Below, piece by piece: positions 1,385-52,020 of a stretch of DNA of 64,000 nucleotides; the first letter of the stretch is position 1; each line of letters starts with the position of its first letter. The notes under the pieces are model-generated. The model had not been told where the DNA came from. It did no database searches and saw nothing but the letters and a program-made list of their open reading frames with translations. The translations under genes and the position numbers were made by a program. Origin of the DNA: Candidatus Lindowbacteria bacterium RIFCSPLOWO2_12_FULL_62_27 (GTDB lineage: Bacteria; Lindowbacteria; 2-12-FULL-62-27); contig MFPR01000026.1 in the NCBI GenBank assembly GCA_001784175.1, positions 1 through 64,000 of the forward strand, read 5' to 3'.

Positions 1385-2281
1385 ATGGTGGAGAAGAAGC
1401 GGGTGGTTTTGCAGTCAATTGTGCTGGTTCTCATAGCGACTGGTCCGGCGGTCGCGAGGGAGGATGGTGCGGGCACGACGACTGCGGATTTTCTAAAAGT
1501 GGGCACTCAGGCCCAGGCGCTGGCGCAGGCGGAGGCGGTGACGGCGCTGGCGGACGGCATTTCGTTTGTGTCCTACAATCCGGCGAGTGTCCAGATGAAG
1601 AGCATGACGCTTACGGCGACGCATGCCCTGCTCTACGAGGGCGTGTCGCTCGAAGAGATCGCGCTGGGAATCCCGTTTGGGCCGAAGGCCGGTTTGGTGA
1701 TCCGCGGAAACGGCATCGTGTTCGACCGCACAGAGCGTACGGACCAGAACGGCAATCGTCTGGGAACGTACGGCTCGACGTCGTTTGCGGCCGGAGCCGG
1801 TTTCTACGGGCATGTGGGGCCGCTGTCGCTGGGCATGTTCGGAAAGACCATCCGTCAAAAGATCGATGCGCATGAATCGTCGGCTGCGGCGGCCGATTTT
1901 GGGGTCCGGTACCTGACGCCGCTGCCGGGTCTCTCTCTCGGCGCGTCGCTTCTCAACGTCGGCCGGCCGGCGACGTTTATTGCGCAGCAGGACGAACTGC
2001 CGCGCGCGGCCCGCGCCGGGATCGGCTATCATCTTGGATTTTTGAAACTCGGCGCGGACGCCGTCCAATACCGGGGCCAACCGGTCCAGGCGGCCGCCGG
2101 CGCGGAGTTGACGCTTTTCAGCGGGTTGAAGCTTCGGGCGGGCTACCGCACGAAAACGCCCCTGACCTCCCCCTACAACGCCGGGATCGGGTTTCGGTTC
2201 TCAGCGCTCGATCTCAGCTACGCCTACAATCCGGGTGACGTCTTCGGCGCCGCCCACCGGCTGACGGTGACGGTGCGGTGA
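1385..2281 (+). CDS. PorV/PorQ-family outer-membrane protein (UPF0164-like)
   Basis: 298 residues. A signal peptide (KKR, then a hydrophobic stretch ending GPAVA-RED) is followed by a FLKVGTQAQALAQAEAVTALADG segment and an S-Y-NPASVQ motif, the usual opening of PorV/PorQ/UPF0164 barrel proteins. The rest is a regular series of amphipathic strands (LGASLLNVG, GLKLRAGYR, LDLSYAYNPG) ending in RLTVTVR. In type IX secretion PorV shuttles substrates at the outer membrane; PorQ-like relatives in other phyla have no settled role. Purine-rich GGGAGGGAGA and GGGGGG tracts just upstream serve as ribosome-binding sequence for the ATG. Its stop overlaps the GTG of the giant protein by 4 nt (GTGA), so the two are translationally coupled and plausibly act together at the surface. 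Confidence 0.8.
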   Translation: MVEKKRVVLQSIVLVLIATGPAVAREDGAGTTTADFLKVGTQAQALAQAEAVTALADGISFVSYNPASVQMKSMTLTATHALLYEGVSLEEIALGIPFGPKAGLVIRGNGIVFDRTERTDQNGNRLGTYGSTSFAAGAGFYGHVGPLSLGMFGKTIRQKIDAHESSAAAADFGVRYLTPLPGLSLGASLLNVGRPATFIAQQDELPRAARAGIGYHLGFLKLGADAVQYRGQPVQAAAGAELTLFSGLKLRAGYRTKTPLTSPYNAGIGFRFSALDLSYAYNPGDVFGAAHRLTVTVR

Positions 2282-5200
2282 CCCTCCTTCGCCTCTCCAT
2301 ATTAATATATATGGCGCTGGGGGTCGGCGCGTGGGGGTGGGCCGCCGACCTCGATGCAGCGCGGTTTTTGCACACTCCCAAGGACAGCCACCTGATCGAT
2401 CAGCCGTTGCGGATATCGGCGCAATTGACCGAAGCCGCCGGCGTCTCCTCCGTGCAACTCTTCTACAAAAGCCCGGACCGGGCAACCTACACCGTGAAAA
2501 CGATGCAGGCGTCCTGGCAGGCGGACCTTGCGCCGGGGGAACTGTCGCCGCTGGGGCTCAGCTACTTTTTCGAGGCGAAGTATGCGGACGGCCGGGCGTA
2601 CCGGTCGCGGGATTACTCGACGGTCCTCTTGGTGGTCCCGCCCGCGATCCGGGAGATGCTGTACCGGGACGACGCGAGCGGGACGGACGTGAAGGTTGTG
2701 AAGGACGAATTGATCCTGAAACTGGACCCGGCGATGGCGCCGGAAGTTGTCCCCAACGCGATCAACCAGCTTATCCTGCGGCACAACGCGAAGGTTCTCG
2801 GCGTGGACAACGGGTCGCGGCTGGTCCGGATGCAGATTCCGTCGACGCTCGATCTTAAGGCCGTCCTCGCCGATTTGTCGGCGCAGAGCGCCGTCGCGTA
2901 CGCGCATCCGCACGGACTCTACGAGCCGGTCCTGACGCCCAACGATCCGATGCTGGAGGAGCAGTGGGCCGTGCAAAAAATGCGGCTGCCCGAAGCGTGG
3001 AACACGACGACCGGCGACGTGAACGTGATTGTCGGCATCATCGACACGGGCCGCGACCCGAACCATCCGGACCTCTCCGGGCAGTTTCTGCCGGGCTACG
3101 ACTATTACGCGAACGATCCCGACCCGTGGGACGTCGGCGGCCATGGCACGATGGTGGCCGGCGTGGTGGGCGCGATCGGGAACAACGGCACGGGCGTGGC
3201 GGGCACGAATTGGAAGTGCAAGATACTGCCGTACCGGGTGGGGGACTGGTCGCTGTCGATCTGGGCGATCGTGCAGTCGTTGCGGGACGCGACGGACAAG
3301 GGCGCGCGCGTGATCAACATGAGTTTCGGCGGATTCGGCGGCTGGCCGGCGATGCACGACGCGCTGAAGTACGCCTACTCGAAGGGCGTGGTCCTGATCG
3401 CGGCCGCCGGCAATTCGTACACGCAAACGCCCGTCTATCCGGCCGCCTATCCGGAAGTCATCGGCGTCGTGGCGACGAACCGGTCGGACCAGAAGGCGTA
3501 TTTTTCGAGTTACGGCAGTTGGGTGGACGTTTCGGCGCCCGGCCAGGAAATCCTGACGACCACGGTCGGCGGCGGATACAAATCCGTCAACGGAACATCG
3601 TTCGCCTCGCCCTACACGGCGGGCCTCGCCAGCCTGCTTCTGTCGGTGAACCCGACGCTGACCAACGAGGAAGTCCGGGAGATTTTGCGGTCGACGGCGG
3701 TCGATCTCGGGTCGGCCGGCTTCGACAACGTGTTCGGCTATGGCCGGATCGACGCTCCGGCCGCTGTGATGGCGGCCCGGGGCGCCGCGGCGGACGACAC
3801 GCCGCCGGTCATCACGCATTTTCCAGTCCGCGAGGTGGACCCGGGAATTTCGGTGAGCGTGCTGGCCGCCGTGACCGACAACGTCGCCGTGCACAGCGGC
3901 ATTCTGTCGTACCGTCGAAAGGGCGACGCGACGTTCACCGAGTCGATCATGTCGTATCTGGGCGGCACGCTGTACGAGGGCGTCATTCCCAAGTCGACCG
4001 TCGAGCCGCCGGCGGTCGAGTACTCGCTGCGGGCGCGGGACGCGAAAGGCAACTGGTCGTTCACGCCGGTCTACACGATCGCGATGAAGGACCGCACGCC
4101 CCCGGTGGTTCAGCACACGCCGCCGTCGCAGGCCGATTCGGGCCTGCCGATGACGATCGCCGCGACCGTGACCGACGACGTCGGCGTGAAGTCGGCGACG
4201 GCGCATGTGCGGATGCGGGGAGAGTCCGGGTACACGGCGTATGAAATGACGGCGGGTCCCAACCAGCAGTATCAGGCGACGATCCCGGGACCGGCCGTCC
4301 GGATGCCCGCCATTCAATATTATTTTTCCGCCACCGACACCGCCGGCAACCAGCCCCCGACCGGCCAGCCGGGGAGCGCGGCGGCGCCGCACGAGGTCAA
4401 GGTCGTGTACGTCGACCGCACGCCGCCGTTTGTGGCGCACGATCCGGTGGCGGCCGCGCAGCCGGCGCATCTGCCAGTGCGGGTCGAGGCGCGAATCACC
4501 GACGACGTCGGCGTCGCCGGCGCGACGCTGTTCTTCCGGCCGCGCGGAAAGCCTCTCTTCGACACGGCGCCGATGATGCCGTCCGGCGCCGACTCCTACA
4601 TCGCGCTCATTCCCGCATCGGCCGTCGTGTCGCCGGCGGTTGAATACTACATCGACGCGACCGACTCCGCCGGCAACCGGCCGGCGGGCGGCCGTACTCC
4701 CGGATCGGCGAGTCTGCCGAACGGGTTTCCGGTTCCGGCCGACACGTCGCCTCCGACGATCCGGCACACGGCGCTCGGAACGCCGCCGGACGCGCTGATC
4801 GAGGGCCTGCCGGTCGTGGTGTCGGCGATCGCGCTGGACAACCACGGCGTTCAGGCGATGCGGCTGCATCACAAACCGGCGGGAGCTTCGTCGCATTTCG
4901 TCCGGCCGATGACGTACACGCTGTCGAACCGTTTCGAAGCCGCGCTGACCGAAAAGGACGCGGTGGGTCCCGCCATTCATTATTATCTGGTCGCGTCGGA
5001 TTCCGACGGCAACGAAACGACGTGGGGTCCGGCCGAAGTTCCGGTGCATGCCAAAGTGGCGATCATGACGGCGGCAGGCGACACGCGCGCGCTCTGGGCG
5101 CCGGGCGCGGATCAGGTTTTGTTCAAGGACCCAAAGACCGGCCTGTACGCGCGGATGGCCGTCCCGCATTTCGACACCGCGCATTTTTCGTGGTCGGCCG

Positions 5201-8200
5201 ACCTCACGAAGCTCGTGATGGCGGGCCGGTCGGGCGATTCGTGGCTGGTCTACGTGATCACGCTGGAGGATTCCATTCCCAGGGCGCACCGGGTCACGGA
5301 CGGCGATTGGCTGGATCTTTATCCGAGCTGGTCGGCCGACGGGAAGTTTTTGTTGTTCGCGTCGAACCGCGCGGGCGAATGGGACATTTTCATGAAACCG
5401 GTGGACTCGGACAGCGACGGCATCCCGGACACCGGCGGGGCGATCGTCAAGCTGTCGGCCGACACGGGCGCGCGCGGCAAGGGCGATGTCCTCGGCGTGG
5501 CGCGATTGGCTGCGCCGGGCGCGCTGGAGGTGGTGCGCGGGAAGGTGCCGATCATCGGCGGCGTGTTTGCCCTGGTTCAAGCCGATCAGATGACCCAGGC
5601 GCCGGCGGAAGGATACCGAATAGAGGCAGCGCCGGAGACGAACCCACAAGAGACGACGCTGATCGAGAGCGTGAACGGGTTGAAAACGATACTGTTCGAC
5701 GCCAAGCTGGGCGAGTGGACGCCGCCCTCGGATACGCCGGGAAAATATTCGGTCTGTTTGCACGCGCAAACGTCCGGGCGGTCTGCCAGGGAATGCGTGA
5801 CGGTGTGGGTTCCGGGTCTCGCCGTGACGCTGGAGGCGAAGCCGACGGAGATGTTCCCGGACCAGGCGACTGTGGAGGTACGCGGCGAGGCGCGATATAA
5901 CTTCGGCGCGCTGGGCGCCGGCTTGCCGGTGACGATCTGGGTGCTCGGGACCGGTAGGTCGGTCAGCGCGGTCACGAACGCCTCCGGGCAATTCTACGCC
6001 GAGCTTCCGGCGCCCAGCGTTCCCGGCGAGTATCGGCTGCACGCGGCGGTCACCGACACGTGGGGCTTGATCGCGCGCGCCGAGACGCCGATTACGGTGA
6101 AGGCCAAGAAAATCGTACTGACGATCGATCTCGACCCCACGGAAACATTCGCGCAAGAACCTGTCCGCGCGTTCGGCCGCGCGGTCTATGAGGACAGCCT
6201 TCCGGTGGTCAACCGGGAGGTGACGCTGGAGATCAAGGAGACCTTCAGGAAATATTTCGCGCTCACCGACTCGACCGGCGCCTATTCGGTTCCGGGCGTA
6301 TCGGCGGGCAAACCGGGGCTTTACCATGTCCACGCGCAAGTGTCCGACAGTTTCACCAGCGCGGTCACGCACGCCGAGCTGCGGCTTCGCGGGCAGGCGG
6401 TGGAGCTGACCGAGCAACTTTTACCGCCCGTCGTTTTCACCGGCGCCTACACGTCGGTGTCGGGCACGGCGGTTTACCGGACCACGCGCGCGCCCCTTAA
6501 GGACGCGCCGGTGGCGATCTCGCCGTCCTGGTATCCGGAGCCTGTCTCCGTCCGGACCGACACCGCCGGCCGGTATCTCGCGCTGATCCAGGCGTCGGAT
6601 CGGGCCGGGACGATGCCGGTGCAGGTCACGGCCGGCGACGGGTTTGAAACCGCGAGCGTGCAGCGCGACCTTGTGATGCTGGATTTTTCCTACGGAAATC
6701 CGTTGAAAATCGAAGTGACGATGCGGCCGGATTCGCCGGCCGTCTGGCGCGGGCGGCCCTTCGGGATCACCGGCGACGCGATCTATGTCTATGCGGACCG
6801 TCGCTGGCCCGTCGAGGAAGGCCGCGTGGACCTCGCGATGGACAGCGTTGGCCCCTTGGGGACGCTGTCGTTGACGCGCGACGACGGCGGCCGATTCTCC
6901 TGGAACGGCGCCGCTCCTCGCACGCCGGACACCTACCGGATCCGCGCGACGGTCACCGACCGGTTTGAGCTGAAAGGCCGATCGGAGACGGACCAGGTGG
7001 TGAAGGACCGGCCGCTGATCGTCAAGGGCTTTGCCGACAAGACCGATCCGTACCGGATGTTTCTCCTGAATTTCTTCGGGCACCTGTACTATCCGGACGG
7101 CGGCGCAGTCGAAGCCGCGACGGTGAGCTGCACGTCGAGCCCGCCGGGATATGAAAAAGCGGTGCAGGACTATTTCGATCCCTCGTACGACGGATACTTC
7201 GTCATGCAATTCTTTTCGCCGAACAGGGTCGACACGTACACGCTGCAGTTCCGGGCGGTGGATTCGTACGGCGGAACCGGGGAGACGCAACTCATCGCGA
7301 CGGTGCGGCCGCTGAACGTGAAGGTGACCGCCGGCGTATCGGACTCGATCGTTCCGGCCCGCCTGACGCCGACGGTGCGGGGCAAGGGCATATACATTGA
7401 AAATCAGATCCAGGTGGTGGAAGCGCCGGCGGCCATCCGGTCGACGACGGGGTCAGGCGCGGTCTGGACGGGAAAAACAAACATTCTCGGCGAATTTTCG
7501 AGCGTCGCCGCGCTCCCGCGCGCCGATTTCGAAACCTATCAGCTCACCGTGGACGACGGCCTGTCGGCGGACACCGCGGAAATCGGATTGACCATCCTGT
7601 CGGACTCCATCGTCATCGACGCGCATCTGGACACAGCGATCGTGCCGGACGAAGCGTCGTGGTTGAAGAGTCTCCCGCCGCCGGCCCGGGTTTGGTTGAC
7701 GGCGCGGCCGCGGCATCCGAAAGGCTATGCGCTCTATCGCGAGGGCGCGACGCGCGTGACCGTGACGAACGCGCTGACGGGCGGCGCGGTGTGGGAGACG
7801 GCGTGGACGGCGGCGCCTCTGGGCGAGGGGAAGGACGCGCGGGAGCGGGACGAGGTCGCGGTCCCGGTTCCGACGAGCGCCGGAGAGTTTCGCGTCTCGA
7901 TCTGGATGGAGGACCGCTACGGCGAAGGCGAAACGTCGGTGCTCCTGACGGTCTACACGCCGAGCGAGCCGAAAGACGATCTCGCGCTCGAACTGAATCT
8001 GGACACGAGCGTCGTATCGCCGGGCGCGGTGGTGACGGCCTGGGGCACGCTGGTTTACTCCGGCCTGTCGACCGGCGATCAGGACGACACGGTATTGATT
8101 GAGAATAGTGTCTCGAAGGAACACTGGGAAGGCGTGTATCGCGCGACCGAAAAGAAATTCACGCGGGTTTTTTCGGCGCCGGCCGCCACGGGCGCCTATC

Positions 8201-11200
8201 CGATCGTGGCGTCGAAATGGCACAGCGGCAAGCGGGCCGAGGATGCCGAGATTTTGTTCGTGGTGAAGGGCACGGATACGCCGCCGCCTCCACCGCCTCC
8301 GCCGCCTCCGCCCCCGCCGCCTCCGCCCCCGCCGCCTCCGCCCCCGCCGCCTCCGCCGCCGATCAAGCTCATCATCGTGACGGTGCCGGCGCTCTACATG
8401 GCCGACCCCGGCGATCCCGTGGCGGTGGAAGGGTCGGCGGCCTATACCACAGGCGAGGATGTTTACCCCGGCGTGGCGACGCTCTATCGGGGTTCCACGT
8501 CGATGGCGACCGTGATGCTGTCTCTGCACGGCCGGTTCCGGTTTCCGGAATTTCCGGCGCCGTCGGCCGTGACGGAATACGAGGTCGTGGTGGAGGACGG
8601 CACGCGCGCCGGCCGGGCCACGTTCAAAGTCGTGCCGCCCCCGCCTCCACCGCCGCCCCCGCCGCCGCCCCCGCCGCCTCCACCACCGCCTCCGCCCCCG
8701 CCGCCCACGCCGCCCGCGCCGTACGTCAAGCTCTATCCGGTCCAGTCGCCGGACGGCAAGTACGTGGCCTTTTCGGGCCGGAAGGTCGGGACGACCGATT
8801 CGCTGAACATCTACATTCTGGAGACGGCCAATCCTGCGGCGATCATTCCTTTCACGGCCGAATACGCCAACGACCAGTTTCCGGCATGGTCGGCGGACGG
8901 AAAAACAATCGCGTTCGGATCAAAGCGATCCGGAAATTTCGACATCTGGTCCAAGCCGGTCGACGGCAACGGCGACGGCAAGCCGGACAGCACGGGCCGC
9001 GCCGCGCAACTGACGCGATGGGAAGGCGAGGACAACAAACCCACGTGGTCGCCGGACGGCCGCAAGATCGCGTTCCATTCCGACCGCGCCGGCAACTACG
9101 ACATTTACGTTCAGAACGCGAGCGGTTCAGGCGAGCCTCTGCGGTTGACGGAGAACGCCGCCTACGACGCGCATCCGCACTGGTCGGCGGACGGGAAATA
9201 CATCACGTTCCACTCAAACCGCCGAGCGAAGGAGAGGCTGGCGGACGGAAGTTCCGAGAAGACGTCGATCGGCCTCGTGCTGGACGAGAGCAGCAGCGTG
9301 GACGACGAATCATTCTTGAAGCTGTCCAGCGGCGCCGGCCGGTTTCTCGAGAACCTTGCGGCGGGCGTGTCGGTGGCGGTGACCAAGTTCGACCAGCGCG
9401 TGAAGACGATACAGGATTTCACGGAAGACAAGAAACTCTTGACTGAGGCCTGCGGCACGAGAACCTTCGGCTGCGCGACGGCGATCTACGACGCGCTCTT
9501 CGAATCGCTGGGCCGGCTGGCGGCGCGGCCGGGCCGCCGGATGGCGCTGTTGGTGTCCGACGGATGGGACAATTCGAGCAAGAAAACGATGACGGACGTG
9601 ATCCGGTACGCCACGGAGAACAACATCCAGATATTCGGGGTGTTCGTGTCCAACGCTTTGTATCCCTCGAACCCGGAGCCGTTGCGGATTCTGACCAAGG
9701 CCACGGGCGGCGCGCTGATCGAGATCGACGATTTCGGCGGCGTGACGTCGGGGCTGGAGCATGTGATGAAGCTGTACGACGAGCTCCTGGGTAATTTCAA
9801 CATCTGGTACGCGCCGGCCGAAGGCGGCGAAGCGCGGCAACTCACGGACGACCTGGCGGATGACCTGTATCCGGCGTTCAGCCCGGACGTGAAAAAAATC
9901 GCGTACGTGTCGTTCCGGAGCGGCAAGGGCGACATTTATGTGATCCGGTTCGACCCGACGACGCCGGAATCGCCGCAGCGCCTGTATCCCCCGGTGGCGC
10001 GGATTTCGGCGGACACCAGAGCAATCATGAAGTTCCCGCTGGCGTTGGATGGCGGCGCGTCCTCCGACGCCGACGGCAGGATCGTTGCCTACCGTTGGAG
10101 TTTCGGCGATGGGGGTCTCGGGGGGGACAGCATCGTGGGTCACGCTTACGAGAAGCCGGGTCCGTATACCGTCACGCTGACGGTGATCGACAACGACGGA
10201 CTGATCGATGAGGACAGCGTGCAGATCGTGGTCGACACCGCGCCACCGGGAACGGGCAAACCCTGTGCCCCCAATCTGTCGTCGTTTCAGATTGTCTTCC
10301 GTCCAAGCCAGACGCCGATGCCGACCGGATATGTCGGATATCCGTTTGTCCTCCATGACGGCGGCGTGTACAAGATGTTTTATCACGTGCGCCGGGACTA
10401 CGCGGGATCGCGGGCCGACCTCGAGAAACTCGGTATCGACACGCCTCCGGGAGAAATGCCGAACTTCTCCCATAACATGGTCTCTTATGCCGAGGGCGAG
10501 GACGGTGTTCGATGGACGCACCGTGGAGTTCTGGACGAGACATACGGGGTGGCCCATGTCGGACAGGGTATGGCGCTTGCAAGGGTTGGAACGCGTCTGG
10601 ATCTCATCCAGGAGGACTATCCCAAAATTCATATGAAGCGATTGGCGTCCTATCTCACGTACCGTTACCAGACCGCGGAGGGCGCCTGGAGTTCCAAGAT
10701 CACCCTGCTGGAGGGAACGGATGACCCCAAGAGCTGGGAGTCGACCATGACTCAGCGAACGGCCGCCTTCTTGACATCCTCCGACAGTCTGACGGCCCGG
10801 CTCTGGTACGGAGGTCTCAACAGCACGAGCGAGTTCGCGGACCATCCGCAGTCGATCGGCTTGGCGAAACTCGATTGGGACGAAAGCGGGCAAAGATGGA
10901 GAGCCCGCAGTCGGGAGCGCGTTCTTGCCGCGAGCGCCGAGCCCGGCCATGAATTCGAATCGGTGCAGGTGATGTATCCCTCGGTCCGCCAAATCGGGTC
11001 GGACTCTTATGTGATGTACTACCTCGGTTACCAGCATCCGGAAAAAACCTCCGTATGCCGCGCGTACAGCGCCGATGGGATTGCATGGGAAGGGCGCGAG
11101 AAATTGTTCGACGCGACCCACCTGCCGGCGCAAGTCAGCGACATCACAAGCGTGCAGCTTTTCAGCGATCCCAAGGACGGAAAGGAGTATCTGTATCTGA

Positions 11201-14200
11201 CGGCCGTGGTGGGCGGCTACGAGCATGTGGCCAGAATGGGGTTTACCTGCGACCGGACCGGGATTCCGCCGAATGCCATGTGCTCGCCCGACACCGATCG
11301 CACCGTCGTCGGGACCTCGGTGAAGTTTGACGGCCGCGGGTCGAGCGACCGCGACGGCGTCATCGTCGATTACCGGTGGGAATTCGGCGACGGATCCACG
11401 GCGTCCGGGCCGCAGGCCAGTCACGCTTATCTCCAGCCCGGCGTGTATACCACGTGGCTGACAGTAACGGACAACGACAACCTCTCGGATTTCGACACCT
11501 GCCGGGTGGAGGTTCTTTCCCCTCCGGACAGCGCAAAGGGCCTGTACGTGAATGACGATCGGATTGTGGGGGACAAGTTCACTTATGCGGCCGGCAGCGA
11601 TGAGATCGGCGACGGCACGCGGTTCCGGCCGTTCCGAACCATTCAGAAAGCGATGTCTTTGGCACGACCGGGGGATACGATTTTCGCCGACATCGGGCTC
11701 TATCCCGAACAGGTGGTCATCGACAAGGATCGCATCTGGTTGGAAGGCGCCGGCTCATGGAGCGCATGGGACCAGACGGTGATTGATGCGGGCGATACGT
11801 CTGCTGAACAGAAGGCCCGCGGGTTGTACGCGTCCGATCGTGTCGGCCTGGTCCTGCGGAATTTTGCCGTCCATCACGGATTCACCGGCATCGAGTGGAG
11901 AAACGTCGATTCCTCCTGGATATGGGGCGTCGCCGCGCGACACAACGGCGGCCACGGGATGCGTCTCCACACGAATTCGGATTCGAATCTTCTGTGGGGG
12001 ATCATCTCCGAATCGAATGCGGCGGCCGGCCTGATTCTGGACGGATCGTATCAGAATCTACTGACCGCCTGCGCGTTCGGACAGAATACGGCGGCCGGCG
12101 TGGAGATCCGGAACGGCCGCGGGAACCGCGTCGTCCTGAACGACATTTACGAGAACGACACCGGCGTCTGGATTTCCGGCGGGACCGGGGACCATGTGAT
12201 TTTCAAGAACAATTTCAAATCCAACCGGGTCAGTTACATTTCGAACGCCGCCGGCGGTCCTCTGTCCGTGGCGCGCAACTGGTGGGGAACCACGGATGAA
12301 GTCACGATCCGGCAGAGGATGGCCGGGTCGGCCGCGATTCCGGAGTTCATTCCGTACAGGCTCGGGCTGGTCGACACGCCGGAGGGCATGGACACGGTGG
12401 CGCCCCGCGCGCCGGCGGAGATCCGCGCGGAAACGACGGCGCAGGGGGCGATCCTGATTCGGTGGAGGAATCCGGATGTGGACGAGGAATATCCGGGATC
12501 GCTCAGCGGGTTCACCGGCGTGCGGATCTACCGCCTGGTGGATCGGCCGGACACGACGCAGTGGGCGTCCGAGGCCACGTTGCGGGCTCGCGTGCCCCAG
12601 CCAGGCGCTGAGTTTTTGGACACGGACGTGCAGCCCGGCCGCGCCTACTATTATCGTCTGACATCGTTGGACGACGCATGGCACGTCAATGAGTCATGGT
12701 TTTCGGATACCGTCAGCATCAGCGTGCCGGACTCCGGGAGGTTAAGACCGACGCTCTCGTGGTATCCGTCCGGCGGGCAGGGAACCGCAAAGTCGGAGAC
12801 GTACCAGTTGCGGAACATGTCGAAGAACCCGCAAGACGTGGCCGCGGGCGTCATCGTGGGCGTGTTCGTGATCCGCGGCGCGGAATACGTGGAAACGGCG
12901 TATCTCGACACGGCCGCCATCGGAGAGATGGCGGCGGTCGACACGCGCGCGGTCCGGCTGACGATCGTCACCAACGCCGCCTGGGAGGCCGCGCAGAAGA
13001 ACGCCTCGGTGACGGTCGAGCTTCGCGTCGTGCAGGAGCTGAATTGGCCGGAGAAGAATGTGGGAGTGTCGGGGCAGTACAGGCTCGTCAAAGACGACGC
13101 CGGCCCGGTGGGTCTTTCGAGCATGTCATACGTAGTGTCCGACGAAGTTGTTGAGTTGGGGGCGCCGGGCGCCGTTCGGCGCGATCACAAGGCATTCATC
13201 GAGATCAAGAGCGTCGTTTACAATCCGGATAGCTCCGGCATTCTGATGGACATGTATCGGTCCATTCATGATGGATTGTACTTGGCGGAGGCGCGCATTC
13301 CCGGTGGCGCCGCGAGCGTCGAAACCTTCGGGACATATTCGGTCCTCCATCTTACACAGATTCCTATCAAGAACGGCGAATCGGCGGCGGTGCGATTGGT
13401 CCTCGGCATGGACTTGAACCGGCAAAGCGATATTGACCTGAAAGCGATCGCCCAAGACATCCGCATGACAGAGTGGAGTCCGGCGGGTGCGATGACCGTG
13501 GAAGAAATCTCTGATGCCCCGGGCGGCGCGGCGTTTCAACGACGGCGCGTCATCCGGGGCGCGGTCCCCAAGTCCGACCTCTCGACTCGTGTGACGTTCT
13601 TTGATGTCACAAACGGGAGGCCCCGGAAAATCGCCGAAACCCGTCTGTCGGACAGCGGGGCATTCGAGCTGGCGGACATCTCCGATTCGGTGAATGACGT
13701 GGTCGTGCGCGTGGACCGACGGGCGTCATTCCCGCATTTCTCGCGTTTGAAACTTGATGAGGACAGGGTGACGTACCTTTTGGCCAATATCGAGCCTGCG
13801 GAAATTGACGTGAAGAGAGGCCACAGCCGAATGGTCGATTCGCCGGAGATCCGGCAGGAAGTGTCGGCGGGAGAAGGTACGGAGAAGGCGCGGATCGATG
13901 TGCCGGGTGGCGCGATCGACCGGCCGTTTTATATCACTCTGCGAGAACCGGACAATATCGAGGAGATACGCGCCGCCGCGCCCGCCGGCCGGAGGCTATT
14001 GGCCGCCCGGGAGTACGTGCTGGTGGACGCGCAGACAGGCGAGGAGATTCACAGCGGGTTCCGCGAAAAAATCCGCATCGCGCTGTCACTGGCCGGCCTG
14101 AGATCCGGCGAGATGGCAAAAATCGCCCACTACGATCCCGAGACCGGCAACTTCAACGAGGAGGCGGCGGTCGTGGATGAGACTGGCGGAGAAGTCGTGT

Positions 14201-14586
14201 CCGACGTCGACCATTTCTCGATCTACGTCTCGCTTGCGTCTCCGGCGCCGGCGGCCCCCGCGCCGACGTACACGGATTTTTCGGAACTCTTGGTGTATCC
14301 GAATCCGTATCTGGCCACCTATGGGACGAACCGGGTGGTGTTCGAATACGTTCCGGCGACCGCGAAAGTAACGATTTACGCGGTGTCCGGCGATCTCGTC
14401 CGGGAAATCGAGAACGAGGGGTCAGGCGACGTCAACGGGTCCGTGCGCGGAAGCGCCGCCACCGCTCACATCGGCTGGGACCTCACGAACCGCTTCGGCC
14501 GTCCGGCGGCGAGCGGGATGTATTTGTATTTGTTGAAGGACACCGCCGGCCATGTGCAAAAGGGCCGGGTGGGTGTGGTACGATGA
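2278..14586 (+). CDS. giant exported subtilase (S8) mosaic protein, 4102 residues
   Basis: Reading N to C: signal peptide (about 1-23); Ig-like domain; fervidolysin-like propeptide (about 138-240); S8 protease with catalytic D256 (IIDTG), H289 (GGHGT) and S441 (NGTSFASP); four Ig-like repeats with TPP(V/F/T)I and DDVGV motifs (about 508-920); a first PD40/TolB-like propeller; a long run of Ig/transthyretin-like domains (about 1100-2000); two polyproline tracts (about 2002-2028 and 2119-2146) around one Ig domain; a second PD40 propeller interrupted by a VWA domain with MIDAS D2336-x-S2338-x-S2340; two PKD domains flanking a GH43-like five-bladed region; a right-handed beta-helix (about 3088-3352); FN3; and a C-terminal FlgD/T9SS-like domain (VYPNPY...GRPAASGMYLYLL). 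All catalytic residues are present, so an active cell-surface or secreted protease is likely. The frame stays open for 12.3 kb. GTG start, coupled to the PorV-like gene. Confidence 0.9.
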   Translation: MTLLRLSILIYMALGVGAWGWAADLDAARFLHTPKDSHLIDQPLRISAQLTEAAGVSSVQLFYKSPDRATYTVKTMQASWQADLAPGELSPLGLSYFFEAKYADGRAYRSRDYSTVLLVVPPAIREMLYRDDASGTDVKVVKDELILKLDPAMAPEVVPNAINQLILRHNAKVLGVDNGSRLVRMQIPSTLDLKAVLADLSAQSAVAYAHPHGLYEPVLTPNDPMLEEQWAVQKMRLPEAWNTTTGDVNVIVGIIDTGRDPNHPDLSGQFLPGYDYYANDPDPWDVGGHGTMVAGVVGAIGNNGTGVAGTNWKCKILPYRVGDWSLSIWAIVQSLRDATDKGARVINMSFGGFGGWPAMHDALKYAYSKGVVLIAAAGNSYTQTPVYPAAYPEVIGVVATNRSDQKAYFSSYGSWVDVSAPGQEILTTTVGGGYKSVNGTSFASPYTAGLASLLLSVNPTLTNEEVREILRSTAVDLGSAGFDNVFGYGRIDAPAAVMAARGAAADDTPPVITHFPVREVDPGISVSVLAAVTDNVAVHSGILSYRRKGDATFTESIMSYLGGTLYEGVIPKSTVEPPAVEYSLRARDAKGNWSFTPVYTIAMKDRTPPVVQHTPPSQADSGLPMTIAATVTDDVGVKSATAHVRMRGESGYTAYEMTAGPNQQYQATIPGPAVRMPAIQYYFSATDTAGNQPPTGQPGSAAAPHEVKVVYVDRTPPFVAHDPVAAAQPAHLPVRVEARITDDVGVAGATLFFRPRGKPLFDTAPMMPSGADSYIALIPASAVVSPAVEYYIDATDSAGNRPAGGRTPGSASLPNGFPVPADTSPPTIRHTALGTPPDALIEGLPVVVSAIALDNHGVQAMRLHHKPAGASSHFVRPMTYTLSNRFEAALTEKDAVGPAIHYYLVASDSDGNETTWGPAEVPVHAKVAIMTAAGDTRALWAPGADQVLFKDPKTGLYARMAVPHFDTAHFSWSADLTKLVMAGRSGDSWLVYVITLEDSIPRAHRVTDGDWLDLYPSWSADGKFLLFASNRAGEWDIFMKPVDSDSDGIPDTGGAIVKLSADTGARGKGDVLGVARLAAPGALEVVRGKVPIIGGVFALVQADQMTQAPAEGYRIEAAPETNPQETTLIESVNGLKTILFDAKLGEWTPPSDTPGKYSVCLHAQTSGRSARECVTVWVPGLAVTLEAKPTEMFPDQATVEVRGEARYNFGALGAGLPVTIWVLGTGRSVSAVTNASGQFYAELPAPSVPGEYRLHAAVTDTWGLIARAETPITVKAKKIVLTIDLDPTETFAQEPVRAFGRAVYEDSLPVVNREVTLEIKETFRKYFALTDSTGAYSVPGVSAGKPGLYHVHAQVSDSFTSAVTHAELRLRGQAVELTEQLLPPVVFTGAYTSVSGTAVYRTTRAPLKDAPVAISPSWYPEPVSVRTDTAGRYLALIQASDRAGTMPVQVTAGDGFETASVQRDLVMLDFSYGNPLKIEVTMRPDSPAVWRGRPFGITGDAIYVYADRRWPVEEGRVDLAMDSVGPLGTLSLTRDDGGRFSWNGAAPRTPDTYRIRATVTDRFELKGRSETDQVVKDRPLIVKGFADKTDPYRMFLLNFFGHLYYPDGGAVEAATVSCTSSPPGYEKAVQDYFDPSYDGYFVMQFFSPNRVDTYTLQFRAVDSYGGTGETQLIATVRPLNVKVTAGVSDSIVPARLTPTVRGKGIYIENQIQVVEAPAAIRSTTGSGAVWTGKTNILGEFSSVAALPRADFETYQLTVDDGLSADTAEIGLTILSDSIVIDAHLDTAIVPDEASWLKSLPPPARVWLTARPRHPKGYALYREGATRVTVTNALTGGAVWETAWTAAPLGEGKDARERDEVAVPVPTSAGEFRVSIWMEDRYGEGETSVLLTVYTPSEPKDDLALELNLDTSVVSPGAVVTAWGTLVYSGLSTGDQDDTVLIENSVSKEHWEGVYRATEKKFTRVFSAPAATGAYPIVASKWHSGKRAEDAEILFVVKGTDTPPPPPPPPPPPPPPPPPPPPPPPPPPPIKLIIVTVPALYMADPGDPVAVEGSAAYTTGEDVYPGVATLYRGSTSMATVMLSLHGRFRFPEFPAPSAVTEYEVVVEDGTRAGRATFKVVPPPPPPPPPPPPPPPPPPPPPPPPTPPAPYVKLYPVQSPDGKYVAFSGRKVGTTDSLNIYILETANPAAIIPFTAEYANDQFPAWSADGKTIAFGSKRSGNFDIWSKPVDGNGDGKPDSTGRAAQLTRWEGEDNKPTWSPDGRKIAFHSDRAGNYDIYVQNASGSGEPLRLTENAAYDAHPHWSADGKYITFHSNRRAKERLADGSSEKTSIGLVLDESSSVDDESFLKLSSGAGRFLENLAAGVSVAVTKFDQRVKTIQDFTEDKKLLTEACGTRTFGCATAIYDALFESLGRLAARPGRRMALLVSDGWDNSSKKTMTDVIRYATENNIQIFGVFVSNALYPSNPEPLRILTKATGGALIEIDDFGGVTSGLEHVMKLYDELLGNFNIWYAPAEGGEARQLTDDLADDLYPAFSPDVKKIAYVSFRSGKGDIYVIRFDPTTPESPQRLYPPVARISADTRAIMKFPLALDGGASSDADGRIVAYRWSFGDGGLGGDSIVGHAYEKPGPYTVTLTVIDNDGLIDEDSVQIVVDTAPPGTGKPCAPNLSSFQIVFRPSQTPMPTGYVGYPFVLHDGGVYKMFYHVRRDYAGSRADLEKLGIDTPPGEMPNFSHNMVSYAEGEDGVRWTHRGVLDETYGVAHVGQGMALARVGTRLDLIQEDYPKIHMKRLASYLTYRYQTAEGAWSSKITLLEGTDDPKSWESTMTQRTAAFLTSSDSLTARLWYGGLNSTSEFADHPQSIGLAKLDWDESGQRWRARSRERVLAASAEPGHEFESVQVMYPSVRQIGSDSYVMYYLGYQHPEKTSVCRAYSADGIAWEGREKLFDATHLPAQVSDITSVQLFSDPKDGKEYLYLTAVVGGYEHVARMGFTCDRTGIPPNAMCSPDTDRTVVGTSVKFDGRGSSDRDGVIVDYRWEFGDGSTASGPQASHAYLQPGVYTTWLTVTDNDNLSDFDTCRVEVLSPPDSAKGLYVNDDRIVGDKFTYAAGSDEIGDGTRFRPFRTIQKAMSLARPGDTIFADIGLYPEQVVIDKDRIWLEGAGSWSAWDQTVIDAGDTSAEQKARGLYASDRVGLVLRNFAVHHGFTGIEWRNVDSSWIWGVAARHNGGHGMRLHTNSDSNLLWGIISESNAAAGLILDGSYQNLLTACAFGQNTAAGVEIRNGRGNRVVLNDIYENDTGVWISGGTGDHVIFKNNFKSNRVSYISNAAGGPLSVARNWWGTTDEVTIRQRMAGSAAIPEFIPYRLGLVDTPEGMDTVAPRAPAEIRAETTAQGAILIRWRNPDVDEEYPGSLSGFTGVRIYRLVDRPDTTQWASEATLRARVPQPGAEFLDTDVQPGRAYYYRLTSLDDAWHVNESWFSDTVSISVPDSGRLRPTLSWYPSGGQGTAKSETYQLRNMSKNPQDVAAGVIVGVFVIRGAEYVETAYLDTAAIGEMAAVDTRAVRLTIVTNAAWEAAQKNASVTVELRVVQELNWPEKNVGVSGQYRLVKDDAGPVGLSSMSYVVSDEVVELGAPGAVRRDHKAFIEIKSVVYNPDSSGILMDMYRSIHDGLYLAEARIPGGAASVETFGTYSVLHLTQIPIKNGESAAVRLVLGMDLNRQSDIDLKAIAQDIRMTEWSPAGAMTVEEISDAPGGAAFQRRRVIRGAVPKSDLSTRVTFFDVTNGRPRKIAETRLSDSGAFELADISDSVNDVVVRVDRRASFPHFSRLKLDEDRVTYLLANIEPAEIDVKRGHSRMVDSPEIRQEVSAGEGTEKARIDVPGGAIDRPFYITLREPDNIEEIRAAAPAGRRLLAAREYVLVDAQTGEEIHSGFREKIRIALSLAGLRSGEMAKIAHYDPETGNFNEEAAVVDETGGEVVSDVDHFSIYVSLASPAPAAPAPTYTDFSELLVYPNPYLATYGTNRVVFEYVPATAKVTIYAVSGDLVREIENEGSGDVNGSVRGSAATAHIGWDLTNRFGRPAASGMYLYLLKDTAGHVQKGRVGVVR

Positions 14587-28529: not shown

Positions 28530-29201
28530 GTGTCCGAACGGTATTACGATTTGACGCTGCCGATCTCGGGGCGTCTGCCGGTCTGGCCGGGCGATCCGCC
28601 GGTCAGCGTGATCCGGGTCTCCAGCCTGGACCGTGGAGACGCCGCCAATGTTTCGCGCCTGGATATCGGCTCGCATACCGGCACGCACGTGGATGCGCCG
28701 CTGCATTTTGAGCCCGGCGGCGCGCCGGTGGACCGCCTGCCGCTGGACGTCCTCCTGGGTCCGGCGCGTCTGGTGGAACTGGATGTGCGGGAAAAGATTT
28801 CGAAATCCGACATCGAATCCTTGGACTTGAGCGGCGTGACGCGGGTGCTGTTCAAGACGCGGAATTGCCGGCGGTGGCAGGACCTCGCCGATGCGGCATC
28901 GGAGTCGCCTTGTCCATTTGATGAAACCTATGTCTATCTGGACGAGCCGGCGGCCGGCCTCCTCGTGGACCGCGGGGTCCGGCTGGTCGGCGTCGATTAT
29001 CTGTCCGTGGAGTCGTACCGCAACCCCGCGTTCTCCACCCATCACCGGCTCCTGCGCGCGGGCGTGGTGATCCTCGAGGGCCTCAATCCCCTCTCGGTCC
29101 CGCCGGGCGACTACGAGCTGATCGCGGCCCCGCTCCGGATCGAGGGCGGAGACGGCGCGCCCGCCCGGGTCATTTTGAAATCCCTGAAATCCATGCAGTG
29201 A
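28530..29201 (+). CDS. cyclase family protein (kynurenine formamidase-like metal hydrolase)
   Basis: 223 residues; GTG start 11 nt after the HD-GYP gene, with CCGGAGGATCG upstream. The motif SHTGTHVDAPLHFEPGG is the HxGTHxDxPxH metal-binding signature of the cyclase/KynB superfamily, and VRLVGVDYLSVE and HHRLLRAGVVILEGLNPL match its second half. These enzymes hydrolyse N-formylkynurenine or related amides, or act in polyketide cyclisation; no kynurenine-pathway gene is adjacent, so the substrate is open. Its TGA stop is the first three bases of the 54-bp palindromic repeat. Confidence 0.85.
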   Translation: MSERYYDLTLPISGRLPVWPGDPPVSVIRVSSLDRGDAANVSRLDIGSHTGTHVDAPLHFEPGGAPVDRLPLDVLLGPARLVELDVREKISKSDIESLDLSGVTRVLFKTRNCRRWQDLADAASESPCPFDETYVYLDEPAAGLLVDRGVRLVGVDYLSVESYRNPAFSTHHRLLRAGVVILEGLNPLSVPPGDYELIAAPLRIEGGDGAPARVILKSLKSMQ

Positions 29202-29252
29202 TATCATGATATCATGATAGCTATCATGATATCATGATATCATGATATCACT
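29199..29252. repeat. 54-bp palindrome array, copy 1
   Basis: The order is TGATATCA twice, TGATAGCTATCA once, TGATATCA three times, then CT. Positions 29199-29242 form one perfect 44-bp palindrome centred on AGCT. The first TGA is the stop codon of the cyclase gene, and the next gene starts at 29255. All 54 bases are identical to 50816-50869. Confidence 0.95.
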
Positions 29253-29254
29253 TT

Positions 29255-29977
29255 GTGATCAGCGTCATTGTCCCGACGTTGAACGAAGCCGGAACGCTGC
29301 CCCGGCTCCTGGGACGGTGCCGGCCGGCGTCGGAGATGGAAGTGGTCGTGTCGGACGGCGGGAGCGAGGACGGGACGCCGGACACGGCTGAGCGGCTCGG
29401 CGCGCGCGTCGTTCGGTCGGAGAGGGGCCGGGGCCGGCAGATGAACGCGGGCGCGCGCGTGGCTCGGGGCGATGTTCTGTTGTTCGTCCATGCGGACGCT
29501 GAGCCTCCGCATTGCTTTCAGGCGGACATCGCGTCGATTCTCGGCCGGCCGGGGGTTGTGGCGGGGGCGTGGTTGTTGTCGATCGATGCTGCCGGCGCCT
29601 CCTATCGAATGATCGAGCGGCTGGCCAATCTTAGGAGCCGCGTGTTTCAACTGCCGTACGGGGACCAGGGGTTCTTCATCCGTCGCGCGGATTTTGACTT
29701 CCTCGGTGGTTTTTCGGATGCTCCCATCATGGAGGATGTGGAGATGGTCCGGCGGTGCCGACGCCGGGGCCGGATCGTGACGGCCGGGTCCCGGATGCTG
29801 GTTTCTGCGCGGCGCTGGAAGAAAGAGGGCTGGTTGCATACCACGGCGCGGAATCTCCTGGTGCTCACGCTGTACTCCGCCGGTGTCTCTCCCCGGCGCC
29901 TGCTGGCGCTGTATCCACCTCACCGGATCAGCGCCTCCGGCGCCCCAAGTGCCGGCGTCTCCGACGCCGGTCGGTAG
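29255..29977 (+). CDS. family 2 glycosyltransferase (TIGR04283-like)
   Basis: 240 residues. The GT-A core is clear: ISVIVPTLNEAGTLPRLL, VVVSDGGSEDGTPD, a metal-binding HADAEPP and YGDQGFFIRRADFDFLGGFSDAPIMEDVEMVRRCRRRG. The last motifs match the small TIGR04283 group, annotated as arsenosugar-biosynthesis-associated transferases, but no arsenic gene is nearby. It is more likely a transferase for surface or small-molecule glycosides. GTG at 29255 begins 2 nt after the palindrome array and has no Shine-Dalgarno sequence. The C-terminal tail is Ala/Gly/Ser-rich. Confidence 0.85.
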   Translation: MISVIVPTLNEAGTLPRLLGRCRPASEMEVVVSDGGSEDGTPDTAERLGARVVRSERGRGRQMNAGARVARGDVLLFVHADAEPPHCFQADIASILGRPGVVAGAWLLSIDAAGASYRMIERLANLRSRVFQLPYGDQGFFIRRADFDFLGGFSDAPIMEDVEMVRRCRRRGRIVTAGSRMLVSARRWKKEGWLHTTARNLLVLTLYSAGVSPRRLLALYPPHRISASGAPSAGVSDAGR

Positions 29978-49834: not shown

Positions 49835-50818
49835 ATGGAACCGAACGGCAGTCTGACCTGCGCGGTGATCGGAGTGGGTCATCTGGGATTCCATCATGCG
49901 AGGATCCTGTCCGACCCCGATCTGGCGCGTCTCGTCGGAGTGGTGGACGTGCGGGAGGACCGTGCGCGTGAAGTGGCGGAGAAGTTCAAGGTTCGTGCCT
50001 ATTCGAGCGTGAAGGATCTCCCGGCGGTCGATGTGGCGGTGGTGGCCGTGCCGACGAGCATGCACGCGGAGGTGGCGGTGGAATTGCTACAGCGCGGCGT
50101 TCACGTGTTCGTCGAAAAACCGATCGCGCAGAATCTCCGCGAGGCCCGCCGGATCGCCCATGCCGCGCGGCGGTTCGGCCGGACCGTGCAGGTGGGCCAC
50201 GTGGAGCGGTTCAATCCGGCGCTGTATGAGGTGCGGGACCGCGTGACCGACCCGCGGTTCATCGAGATCCACCGGCTGAGCCCTTTCCCGGAGCGCGCGA
50301 CGGACGTTTCGGTGGTGCTGGACGTGATGATCCACGATCTGGACATTGTCCTCCAGTGGATGGCCGACCGGCATCGCCGGCTCCTCAAAGTCAGCGCGGT
50401 CGGGACGCCGGTCCTGACGGACCGCCTCGACATCGTGAACGCGCGGCTTGAATTTCAGGGCGGCGTCGTCGCGAACGTCACGGCCAGCCGGATCTCGGCC
50501 GAGGCGATGCGCAAAATCCGCGTGTTCCAGCCCGACAGCTACCTCTCGGTCGACACTTGGGGCCGATCCTACGAATTTTACCGAAAACGCTCCCCCGGCC
50601 CCCTCCGGTCGCTTTTCGATCTCGAGATCGACCGGAAAGATTTCCAGACCAGCGAGGAGCCCCTACGCCGGGAACTCCGGCACTTCCTGAACTGCCTCCG
50701 GGAGTCCCGCCCGGCCGAGCCGTCGGCCGCCGAGGCCACGCGTGCGCTCTCCCTGGCGCTCCGCATCGAGCGCCTGGCCGCCCGGTCCGCCCGGCCCCGG
50801 CCCCGGCCCCCCAAGTGA
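49835..50818 (+). CDS. Gfo/Idh/MocA-family oxidoreductase
   Basis: 327 residues. Rossmann start CAVIGVGHLGFHHARILSD, the family motif VFVEKPIAQNLREARRIAHAARR, QVGHVERFNPAL and a C-terminal alpha/beta domain with MIHDLDIVLQWM. These enzymes oxidise or reduce sugars or UDP-sugars with NAD(P). In many diderm genomes a member of this family sits directly before lpxB, so a role in envelope sugar or UDP-GlcNAc-derivative metabolism (for example 3-oxo or 3-amino sugars for lipid A) is plausible but unproven. Its TGA stop forms the start of the second palindrome array. Confidence 0.88.
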   Translation: MEPNGSLTCAVIGVGHLGFHHARILSDPDLARLVGVVDVREDRAREVAEKFKVRAYSSVKDLPAVDVAVVAVPTSMHAEVAVELLQRGVHVFVEKPIAQNLREARRIAHAARRFGRTVQVGHVERFNPALYEVRDRVTDPRFIEIHRLSPFPERATDVSVVLDVMIHDLDIVLQWMADRHRRLLKVSAVGTPVLTDRLDIVNARLEFQGGVVANVTASRISAEAMRKIRVFQPDSYLSVDTWGRSYEFYRKRSPGPLRSLFDLEIDRKDFQTSEEPLRRELRHFLNCLRESRPAEPSAAEATRALSLALRIERLAARSARPRPRPPK

Positions 50819-50869
50819 TATCATGATATCATGATAGCTATCATGATATCATGATATCATGATATCACT
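50816..50869. repeat. 54-bp palindrome array, copy 2
   Basis: All 54 bases match 29199-29252: TGATATCA x2, TGATAGCTATCA, TGATATCA x3, CT. The first TGA is the stop codon of the oxidoreductase gene and lpxB starts at 50875. No sequence similarity extends beyond the 54 bp on either side. Confidence 0.95.
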
Positions 50870-50874
50870 CTGCC

Positions 50875-52020
50875 ATGCCGTGCCGTATTTTTGTTTCATC
50901 CGGCGAGCTGTCGAGCGAGCTGCACACCGAGATGGTCCTTCGCGCGTTCGAGCGGCGGCACGCCGGCCGGTTTGAATTTTTCGGCCTCGGCGGCCGGATC
51001 GCCGAGGCGGCGGGGCTGCGGCTTTGTGAGAACATTGTGGACCGCGCGGTCATCGGATTTTCGGAGGCGGTGCGCCACCTCGGATACTTTCGAAGGCTGC
51101 TCCGGACGGTGGATGCGATGATGGCACGCCGGGAGATGGACGGGGTCTTCCTCGTCGACTATCCCGGCTTGAATCTGCACATTGCCCGAATGGCCGCGCG
51201 GTATCGCCTGCCGGTGGTGTATTACATCAGTCCGCAGGTCTGGGCCTGGCACCGGAGCCGGGTCCGGATCCTGGCGAGGTGCATTCGGAAAATGCTCGTG
51301 ATTTTTCCTTTCGAAGTTCCCATCTACGAGGCGGCCGGATGTCCCGTTGAATTTGTGGGCCATCCCTTTGTCGACCGCGTGGCGCCTCAACAAACCCGCG
51401 CGGAGACGCGCCGGTCGATCGGGATCGGCGAGGCGGACCGCCTGATCGCGCTTCTGCCGGGCAGCCGCCGGCAGGAAGTGCATCGGCATTTCCCGGTCAT
51501 GTGGGAGGCGGTGAAAGGCCTGTCGCGGAGCGGCCCGGTGACCGCGGTTATCGGCGTTGCCTCCACGGTCCCGGCAACGTTCTACCGGTATGCGACGCAG
51601 GACACGCCGCCCGGGCTGAAAACTTTTCTGATCGAGGACGAAAAGAGCCGGCACAACCTGATCGCCGCGTCGGACCTGGCGCTGGTCACCACCGGCACGA
51701 TCACCATTGAAACGATGCTGCTCGGGACGCCGATGGTCGCCGGCTACCGGCTCTCCCCGCTGTCGTATGCGCTCGCGCGGCTTCTGGCGAAGGTGCGATA
51801 CTGCGCGATGCCGAATCTGCTGGCGGACGAGCCGATCGTTCCGGAACTGATCCAGCGCCGGTTCACGCCGGAGCGTGTCCGGGCCGAAGCCGAAAAAATT
51901 CTGACCGATCCCGCACGGTCGGATCGCCAGCGCTCCGGCCTGCGCCGGACCGCGGCCCTTCTGGGACCGCCGGGCGCCGCAGACCGGGTGGCGGCCCACG
52001 CTGCGGGAGTTTTCCTCTGA
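50875..52020 (+). CDS. lpxB: lipid-A-disaccharide synthase
   Basis: 381 residues. IFVSSGELSSELHTEMV replaces the usual GE.SGD opening; VDYPGLNLHIARMAAR, YYISPQVWAWHRSRVRILARCIRKMLVIFPFE, YEAAGCPVEFVGHPFVD, ALLPGSRRQEVHRHFP and TTGTITIETMLLGTPMVAGYR are diagnostic. LpxB joins UDP-2,3-diacylglucosamine and lipid X to form the lipid A disaccharide at the inner membrane. The ATG comes 5 nt after the palindrome array, without a Shine-Dalgarno. The ACP partner gene lies at 59999; other lpx genes are outside the window. Confidence 0.94.
   Translation: MPCRIFVSSGELSSELHTEMVLRAFERRHAGRFEFFGLGGRIAEAAGLRLCENIVDRAVIGFSEAVRHLGYFRRLLRTVDAMMARREMDGVFLVDYPGLNLHIARMAARYRLPVVYYISPQVWAWHRSRVRILARCIRKMLVIFPFEVPIYEAAGCPVEFVGHPFVDRVAPQQTRAETRRSIGIGEADRLIALLPGSRRQEVHRHFPVMWEAVKGLSRSGPVTAVIGVASTVPATFYRYATQDTPPGLKTFLIEDEKSRHNLIAASDLALVTTGTITIETMLLGTPMVAGYRLSPLSYALARLLAKVRYCAMPNLLADEPIVPELIQRRFTPERVRAEAEKILTDPARSDRQRSGLRRTAALLGPPGAADRVAAHAAGVFL

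Follow-up and report, generated by a model that had tools for sequence, protein, structure and literature searches.

Tandem 8-bp palindromic boxes as a dispersed, REP-like repeat at gene ends in Candidatus Lindowbacteria, and a candidate ribbon-helix-helix reader

Two base-for-base identical arrays of six palindromic units stand at positions 29199 and 50816 of the 64,000-nucleotide stretch of Candidatus Lindowbacteria DNA analysed here (the window), just as the original prediction had described them, and we lean towards reading the array as a dispersed, REP-like repeat of operator boxes for a ribbon-helix-helix (RHH) protein, acting as a boundary after genes. The unit TGATATCA is the predicted 8-bp binding box of a small RHH protein, whose dimers would occupy neighbouring boxes of the array, much as MetJ does at met boxes; the 4-bp insert of the middle box (TGAT-AGCT-ATCA) would keep two half-arrays apart. 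Through the array in front of its gene, the RHH protein would control its own expression. The other arrays lie shortly past stop codons, mostly ahead of the next gene in the same operon, where bound protein and transcript hairpin together may form a boundary, so that the next gene is expressed less or separately. A REP-like distribution is here combined with an operator-like unit, and, among the genomes searched, a candidate reader is present only where the repeats occur. REP-like repeats were described decades ago and, to our knowledge, still lack a clear host role. If the reading proposed here is true, operator arrays have spread genome-wide to gene boundaries and stayed intact across genera while their surroundings diverged, and one and the same 8-bp box has recurred in two phyla.

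Arrays in the window and in the source genome

The two copies in the window and the genes on either side of them are the following.

28530 to 29201, + strand: gene for a putative cyclase (PF04199), upstream of copy 1; its stop codon is the array's first TGA
29199 to 29250, + strand: array copy 1, (TGATATCA)2 TGATAGCTATCA (TGATATCA)3
29255 to 29977, + strand: gene for a family 2 glycosyltransferase (PF00535), downstream of copy 1; GTG start 4 nt past the array
49835 to 50818, + strand: gene for a GFO/IDH/MocA oxidoreductase, upstream of copy 2; its stop codon is the array's first TGA
50816 to 50867, + strand: array copy 2, same as copy 1 over 54 bp; right flank CTCTG
50875 to 52020, + strand: lpxB (PF02684), downstream of copy 2; ATG start 7 nt past the array

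That the first TGA of the array serves as the stop codon of the upstream gene was confirmed, in frame, at both copies. The dinucleotide CT lies directly 3' of the array in each, and copy 1 taken together with its flanks (AG...CTTTG) spans 29197-29255. The window holds 10 TGATATCA, against 0.23 expected from shuffles, and RNA folding of the two arrays gives −36.7 and −34.1 kcal/mol (z = −6.3 and −7.2), the transcript hairpin being 22-25 bp long. Elsewhere in the window, an open reading frame of 4102 aa with a GTG start occupies positions 2278-14586 of the + strand.

Searching the whole source genome (G000; 4.39 Mb, 44 contigs), in which genes were called by a codon-usage script and most genes flanking the arrays have Pfam matches, uncovered 78 TGATATCA, versus 2 for the reversed pattern. 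All of them lie in 15 arrays except five isolated, chance-like copies, three of which are inside genes. The arrays take the form (TGATATCA)2-3, TGAT(A/G)GCTATCA, (TGATATCA)2-3, most having 4-5 TGATATCA boxes plus a central 12-bp box, which is TGATAGCTATCA or, in one copy, TGATGGCTATCA. Their usual flanks are AG on the left and CTTTG on the right, and array and flanks together make the whole element a near-perfect palindrome. The array at L081 carries older, degenerate extra boxes; at L088:6021-6040, 3' of the array, lies a degenerate extra piece, TGATTTCACTTTG, as if it were an older second element end. No shared functional theme was found among the genes flanking the 15 arrays, and these are unrelated and often housekeeping genes, so the originally suggested link between two envelope-related loci is not supported.

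With respect to gene orientation, all 15 G000 arrays occupy narrow gaps that separate codirectional genes. A second genome, G001 (described below), has 17 arrays between codirectional genes, 7 between convergent genes and 2 at contig ends, and neither genome has an array between divergent genes, a class that accounts for 12% of the junctions and 32% of the intergenic bases of the G000 sequence sampled. The asymmetric arrays with five boxes are also polar: 13/14 run as 2 + centre + 3 in the direction of transcription (11/12 non-redundant, p = 0.006), which a symmetric DNA site leaves unexplained and an RNA hairpin might explain. The claim that arrays always begin at a stop codon proved not to be general, since an in-frame TGA is the exact array start in only 6 of the 15 G000 arrays; in three more the stop that the array supplies is in a different frame or comes from a degenerate unit; the other six lie beyond the stop, by up to 72 nt (at L085, the upstream gene, rpmB, ends 72 nt before the array). 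Where an upstream gene reads into an array, the first TGA is its stop in 11/18 cases (10/17 non-redundant, p = 0.03), and the preference for stop codons is thus only modestly enriched.

Orthologous junctions in related genomes

The comparison covered 41 genomes, namely G000, G001 (Candidatus Lindowbacteria nzgw232, JAHFCY01, a different genus of the same family), G002 (a third genus) and 38 others. G001 contains 26 arrays, whose centres are mostly TGATATATATCA, with ATAT in place of AGCT, the exceptions being two arrays with CCAC between boxes and a few without a centre; arrays were absent from G002 and from the 38 further genomes. Orthologous junctions were located through the flanking proteins, and five of them (29199, L084, L085, L088 and L089, the last with only the downstream gene common to the two genomes) carry an array in both G000 and G001, the chance probability of at least five shared junctions being <1e-5. 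Three of the five array pairs differ between the two genera only in the two bases at the centre, and a fourth pair differs in these and in one box; the aligned flanks at shared junctions are mostly 43-65% identical, and the flanking proteins mostly 60-85%. Uncommon flanks are also common to both genera (CCGAG at L085, CTC at L084) and therefore favour an origin of the shared arrays by common descent, with a centre that would since have been homogenised.

The junction of copy 1 has an orthologous array in G001 (L092) and an empty site in G002 (L117), where the upstream stop overlaps the downstream TTG start; the orthologous junctions of copy 2 are without an array in both G001 (L118) and G002 (L119). 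Comparing array-bearing with array-free orthologous junctions, the course that the original prediction had pointed to, thus yielded empty sites in G002, and its worry that an assembly artefact had joined the two loci is contradicted by arrays at orthologous junctions in an independently assembled genus.

Farther afield, the array was absent from the viral contigs searched, and the plasmids, phages and E. coli searched held no convincing array and no convincing RHH relative. None of the papers searched contains the 16-mer TGATATCATGATATCA. A Nitrosomonadales MAG has a single (TGATATCA)3 array (L045:504-527) with other flanks (ATGATGATATCA...TGATGAT), which is probably unrelated.

Candidate reader proteins in two phyla

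Short palindromes in tandem pointed to an RHH reader, by analogy with the sites of MetJ, omega and F55 (see below). One of the 15 G000 arrays precedes a gene for a 65-aa RHH candidate (C30:79899-80093), and in both G000 and G001 the array lies 18-21 nt upstream of this gene, the upstream and other neighbours of which differ between the two genomes. The gene is confidently present only in these two among the 41 genomes, and a profile made from the two proteins gave one marginal match (E = 5.6e-4) in the 39 others. As for family membership, the RHH signal is weak though consistent: the protein matches a FitA-like RHH (E = 1e-4) and RHH_1 (0.006), both below the Pfam curated cut-offs, and its top Foldseek matches are mostly RHH proteins (NikR, AmrZ, CopG), none of them significant (E > 0.3). 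Weaker matches are to MatP and CdbA, from the protein model, and to the segregation protein PrgO. AlphaFold models of two RHH candidates have pLDDT values of 68 and 74, with no significant Foldseek E-value. In these two genomes the RHH gene has as neighbours genes for an acetyltransferase, an epimerase, a spermine-synthase-like protein and a kinase, plus one whose product has no Pfam match; no toxin family, as would accompany a FitA-like type II antitoxin, was present among them in either genus.

Because the link between RHH gene and array in Lindowbacteria was a post hoc observation, Clostridia were used as a replicate. Several ruminant-gut Clostridia have scattered intergenic (TGATATCA)2-4 arrays, and at four distinct loci the array overlaps or abuts a promoter −10 element and is then followed by a gene for an RHH-like protein of 57-76 aa. 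Searched with a profile of these four proteins, nine array genomes and 11 array-free family members yielded the RHH-like gene in 6/9 and 0/11 cases, respectively (Fisher p = 0.002); in G043, one of the six and outside the profile, an array at the contig start lies ~50 bp before the gene. The family was absent from three Clostridia array genomes and from the Nitrosomonadales one, all of them drafts. The clostridial protein is modelled as helix-helix with weak Arc/HicB matches, the model being essentially without an RHH match in Foldseek, and no similarity is detectable between the Lindowbacteria and the Clostridia candidates. In the Clostridia MAG JAFRZS01 (L028:2453-3419), several TGATATCATGATATCA sites lie 3' of the RHH gene (2494-2667) at a spacing of ~66-180 bp with repeated flanks, and resemble an iteron or centromere cluster.

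Box binding and autoregulation would be the simplest account of this linkage between RHH gene and array, and it is from linkage and location that we infer RHH binding, autoregulation and a boundary role. The original suggestion of a cluster of regulator-binding sites gains ground from the association between RHH genes and arrays in two phyla, with the binding itself a prediction. Nor do the arrays mark out a coherent promoter regulon, being intercistronic, beside unrelated genes and mostly outside promoters. More tentatively, and short of an even chance in our judgement, the arrays may belong to a class of dispersed operator-box repeats for a dedicated, autoregulated RHH protein, a class that would have arisen at least twice, in Lindowbacteria and in gut Clostridia, with the same 8-bp box but with RHH proteins of no detectable similarity, and that would serve as protein-bound boundaries between genes.

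Known systems and alternative explanations

The distribution of the array is REP-like, including the use of a repeat end as stop codon: as in GTAG/CGTC REP elements, short palindromes follow soon after stops, between codirectional or convergent genes, and sometimes supply the stop, the end of a GTAG REP being able to serve as a stop codon (PMC3733652). Here, however, there is no GTAG/CGTC tag (AAAG/CTTTG-like flanks stand at both ends instead), no RAYT at the arrays, and a copy number of 15 and 26 arrays, where PMC2817692 gives REP copies as usually >100 per genome. In addition, the elements consist of 8-bp boxes in tandem and are associated with an RHH gene. We therefore did not file the array as a GTAG/CGTC REP, given that tag, RAYT link and copy number all differ.

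In its sequence, the array looks like an RHH operator array. MetJ is an RHH repressor whose operator consists of contiguous tandem 8-bp palindromic boxes (PMC4239095), and the present arrays are likewise contiguous and tandem, with a candidate RHH gene in the same genome that carries the array itself, embedded in the promoter in Clostridia. They differ from met boxes in the box (TGATATCA rather than AGACGTCT), in their mostly intercistronic location as opposed to the promoters of one pathway, and in a central box with a 4-bp insert, and RHH binding is here predicted. F55 of SSV1, an RHH repressor acting on tandem short repeats (ATAGATAG) at several promoters, its own included (PMC5569661), offers a further parallel; F55 is a virus regulator with promoter sites only, and its sites are unlike the array in sequence.

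Among alternatives to operator boxes, the main rival, which we consider unlikely, is an RNA element, i.e., a perfect, REP-like intercistronic mRNA hairpin that would protect the upstream message from 3' exonucleases or be cut by RNase III so as to separate the cistrons. The polarity relative to transcription and the location of every typed array after a gene 3' end, with none between divergent genes, fit it too, as do the very stable hairpins, in which the 4-nt loop is the genus-variable part (AGCU, AUAU, CCAC). Of four single transitions, three preserve pairing as G-U in the sense transcript, but this excess is not significant. An RNA element would leave the RHH linkage unexplained and gives no reason for one constant 8-mer rather than any paired stem, and an Rfam search gave only chance microRNA-like hairpin matches.

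Quite unlikely, in our estimate, is a non-autonomous mobile repeat of the REP/MITE kind, mobilised by a transposase in trans and without host function. The original prediction of a mini-mobile element is sustained as far as dispersal goes, with near-identical copies, orthologous junctions that are empty in G002 and a centre that is genus-specific in all copies, but not as regards a mobiliser or a target: no clear target-site duplication and no GTAG/CGTC tag were found at the arrays, and the preference for stop codons is weak. There are eight Y1-type (RAYT-like) transposase genes in G000, yet none at any array or isolated TGATATCA copy, and G002 has 10 of them and 0 arrays; a RAYT/Y1 transposase was accordingly rejected as the driver, being unlinked to the arrays and commoner in the array-free genome. 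The G000 genes are on C1, C22, C24 (two), C36, C41, C43 and C44. Five junctions, moreover, have kept intact arrays in two genera, and this, along with the lack of a linked mobiliser, makes a plain selfish repeat less likely than it would otherwise appear.

Very unlikely, too, is a chromosome-organising or partition site, in which the RHH protein would use the scattered arrays in the manner of matS or parS. MatP is itself an RHH protein, and its matS sites, dispersed on the chromosome, number roughly two dozen, a figure to set beside the 15-26 sites per genome found here, and the weak matches of the 65-aa model to MatP, CdbA and PrgO point the same way. A matS site, however, consists of one 13-bp palindrome and occurs only in the Ter region, whereas the present sites are tandem arrays at gene ends, with no obvious clustering by contig (the contigs being unordered). 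The omega protein, an RHH ParB of pSM19035, binds 7-10 contiguous 7-bp repeats that overlap promoters (PMC9499535); contiguous short repeats with an RHH dimer on each, overlapping the promoter of the RHH gene itself, would be shared with our arrays, and the array end TATCACT fits WATCACW. Its repeats are non-palindromic, lie on a plasmid and have ParA adjacent, whereas the 8-bp palindromes described here are chromosomal, and a ParA-type gene beside the RHH gene is absent in both genera.

Finally, a translational coupler, in which the hairpin stands in for the Shine-Dalgarno (SD) sequence of the next gene, as originally suggested, is barely credible: the gap from array to start is only 2-8 nt at some junctions, and a TTG within the right flank could serve as start at a few, but some arrays lie between convergent genes, SD-like matches of at least 4 nt are as frequent after arrays (46% of genes) as at other codirectional genes (38%), and a good SD follows the array at L080, L088 and L089.
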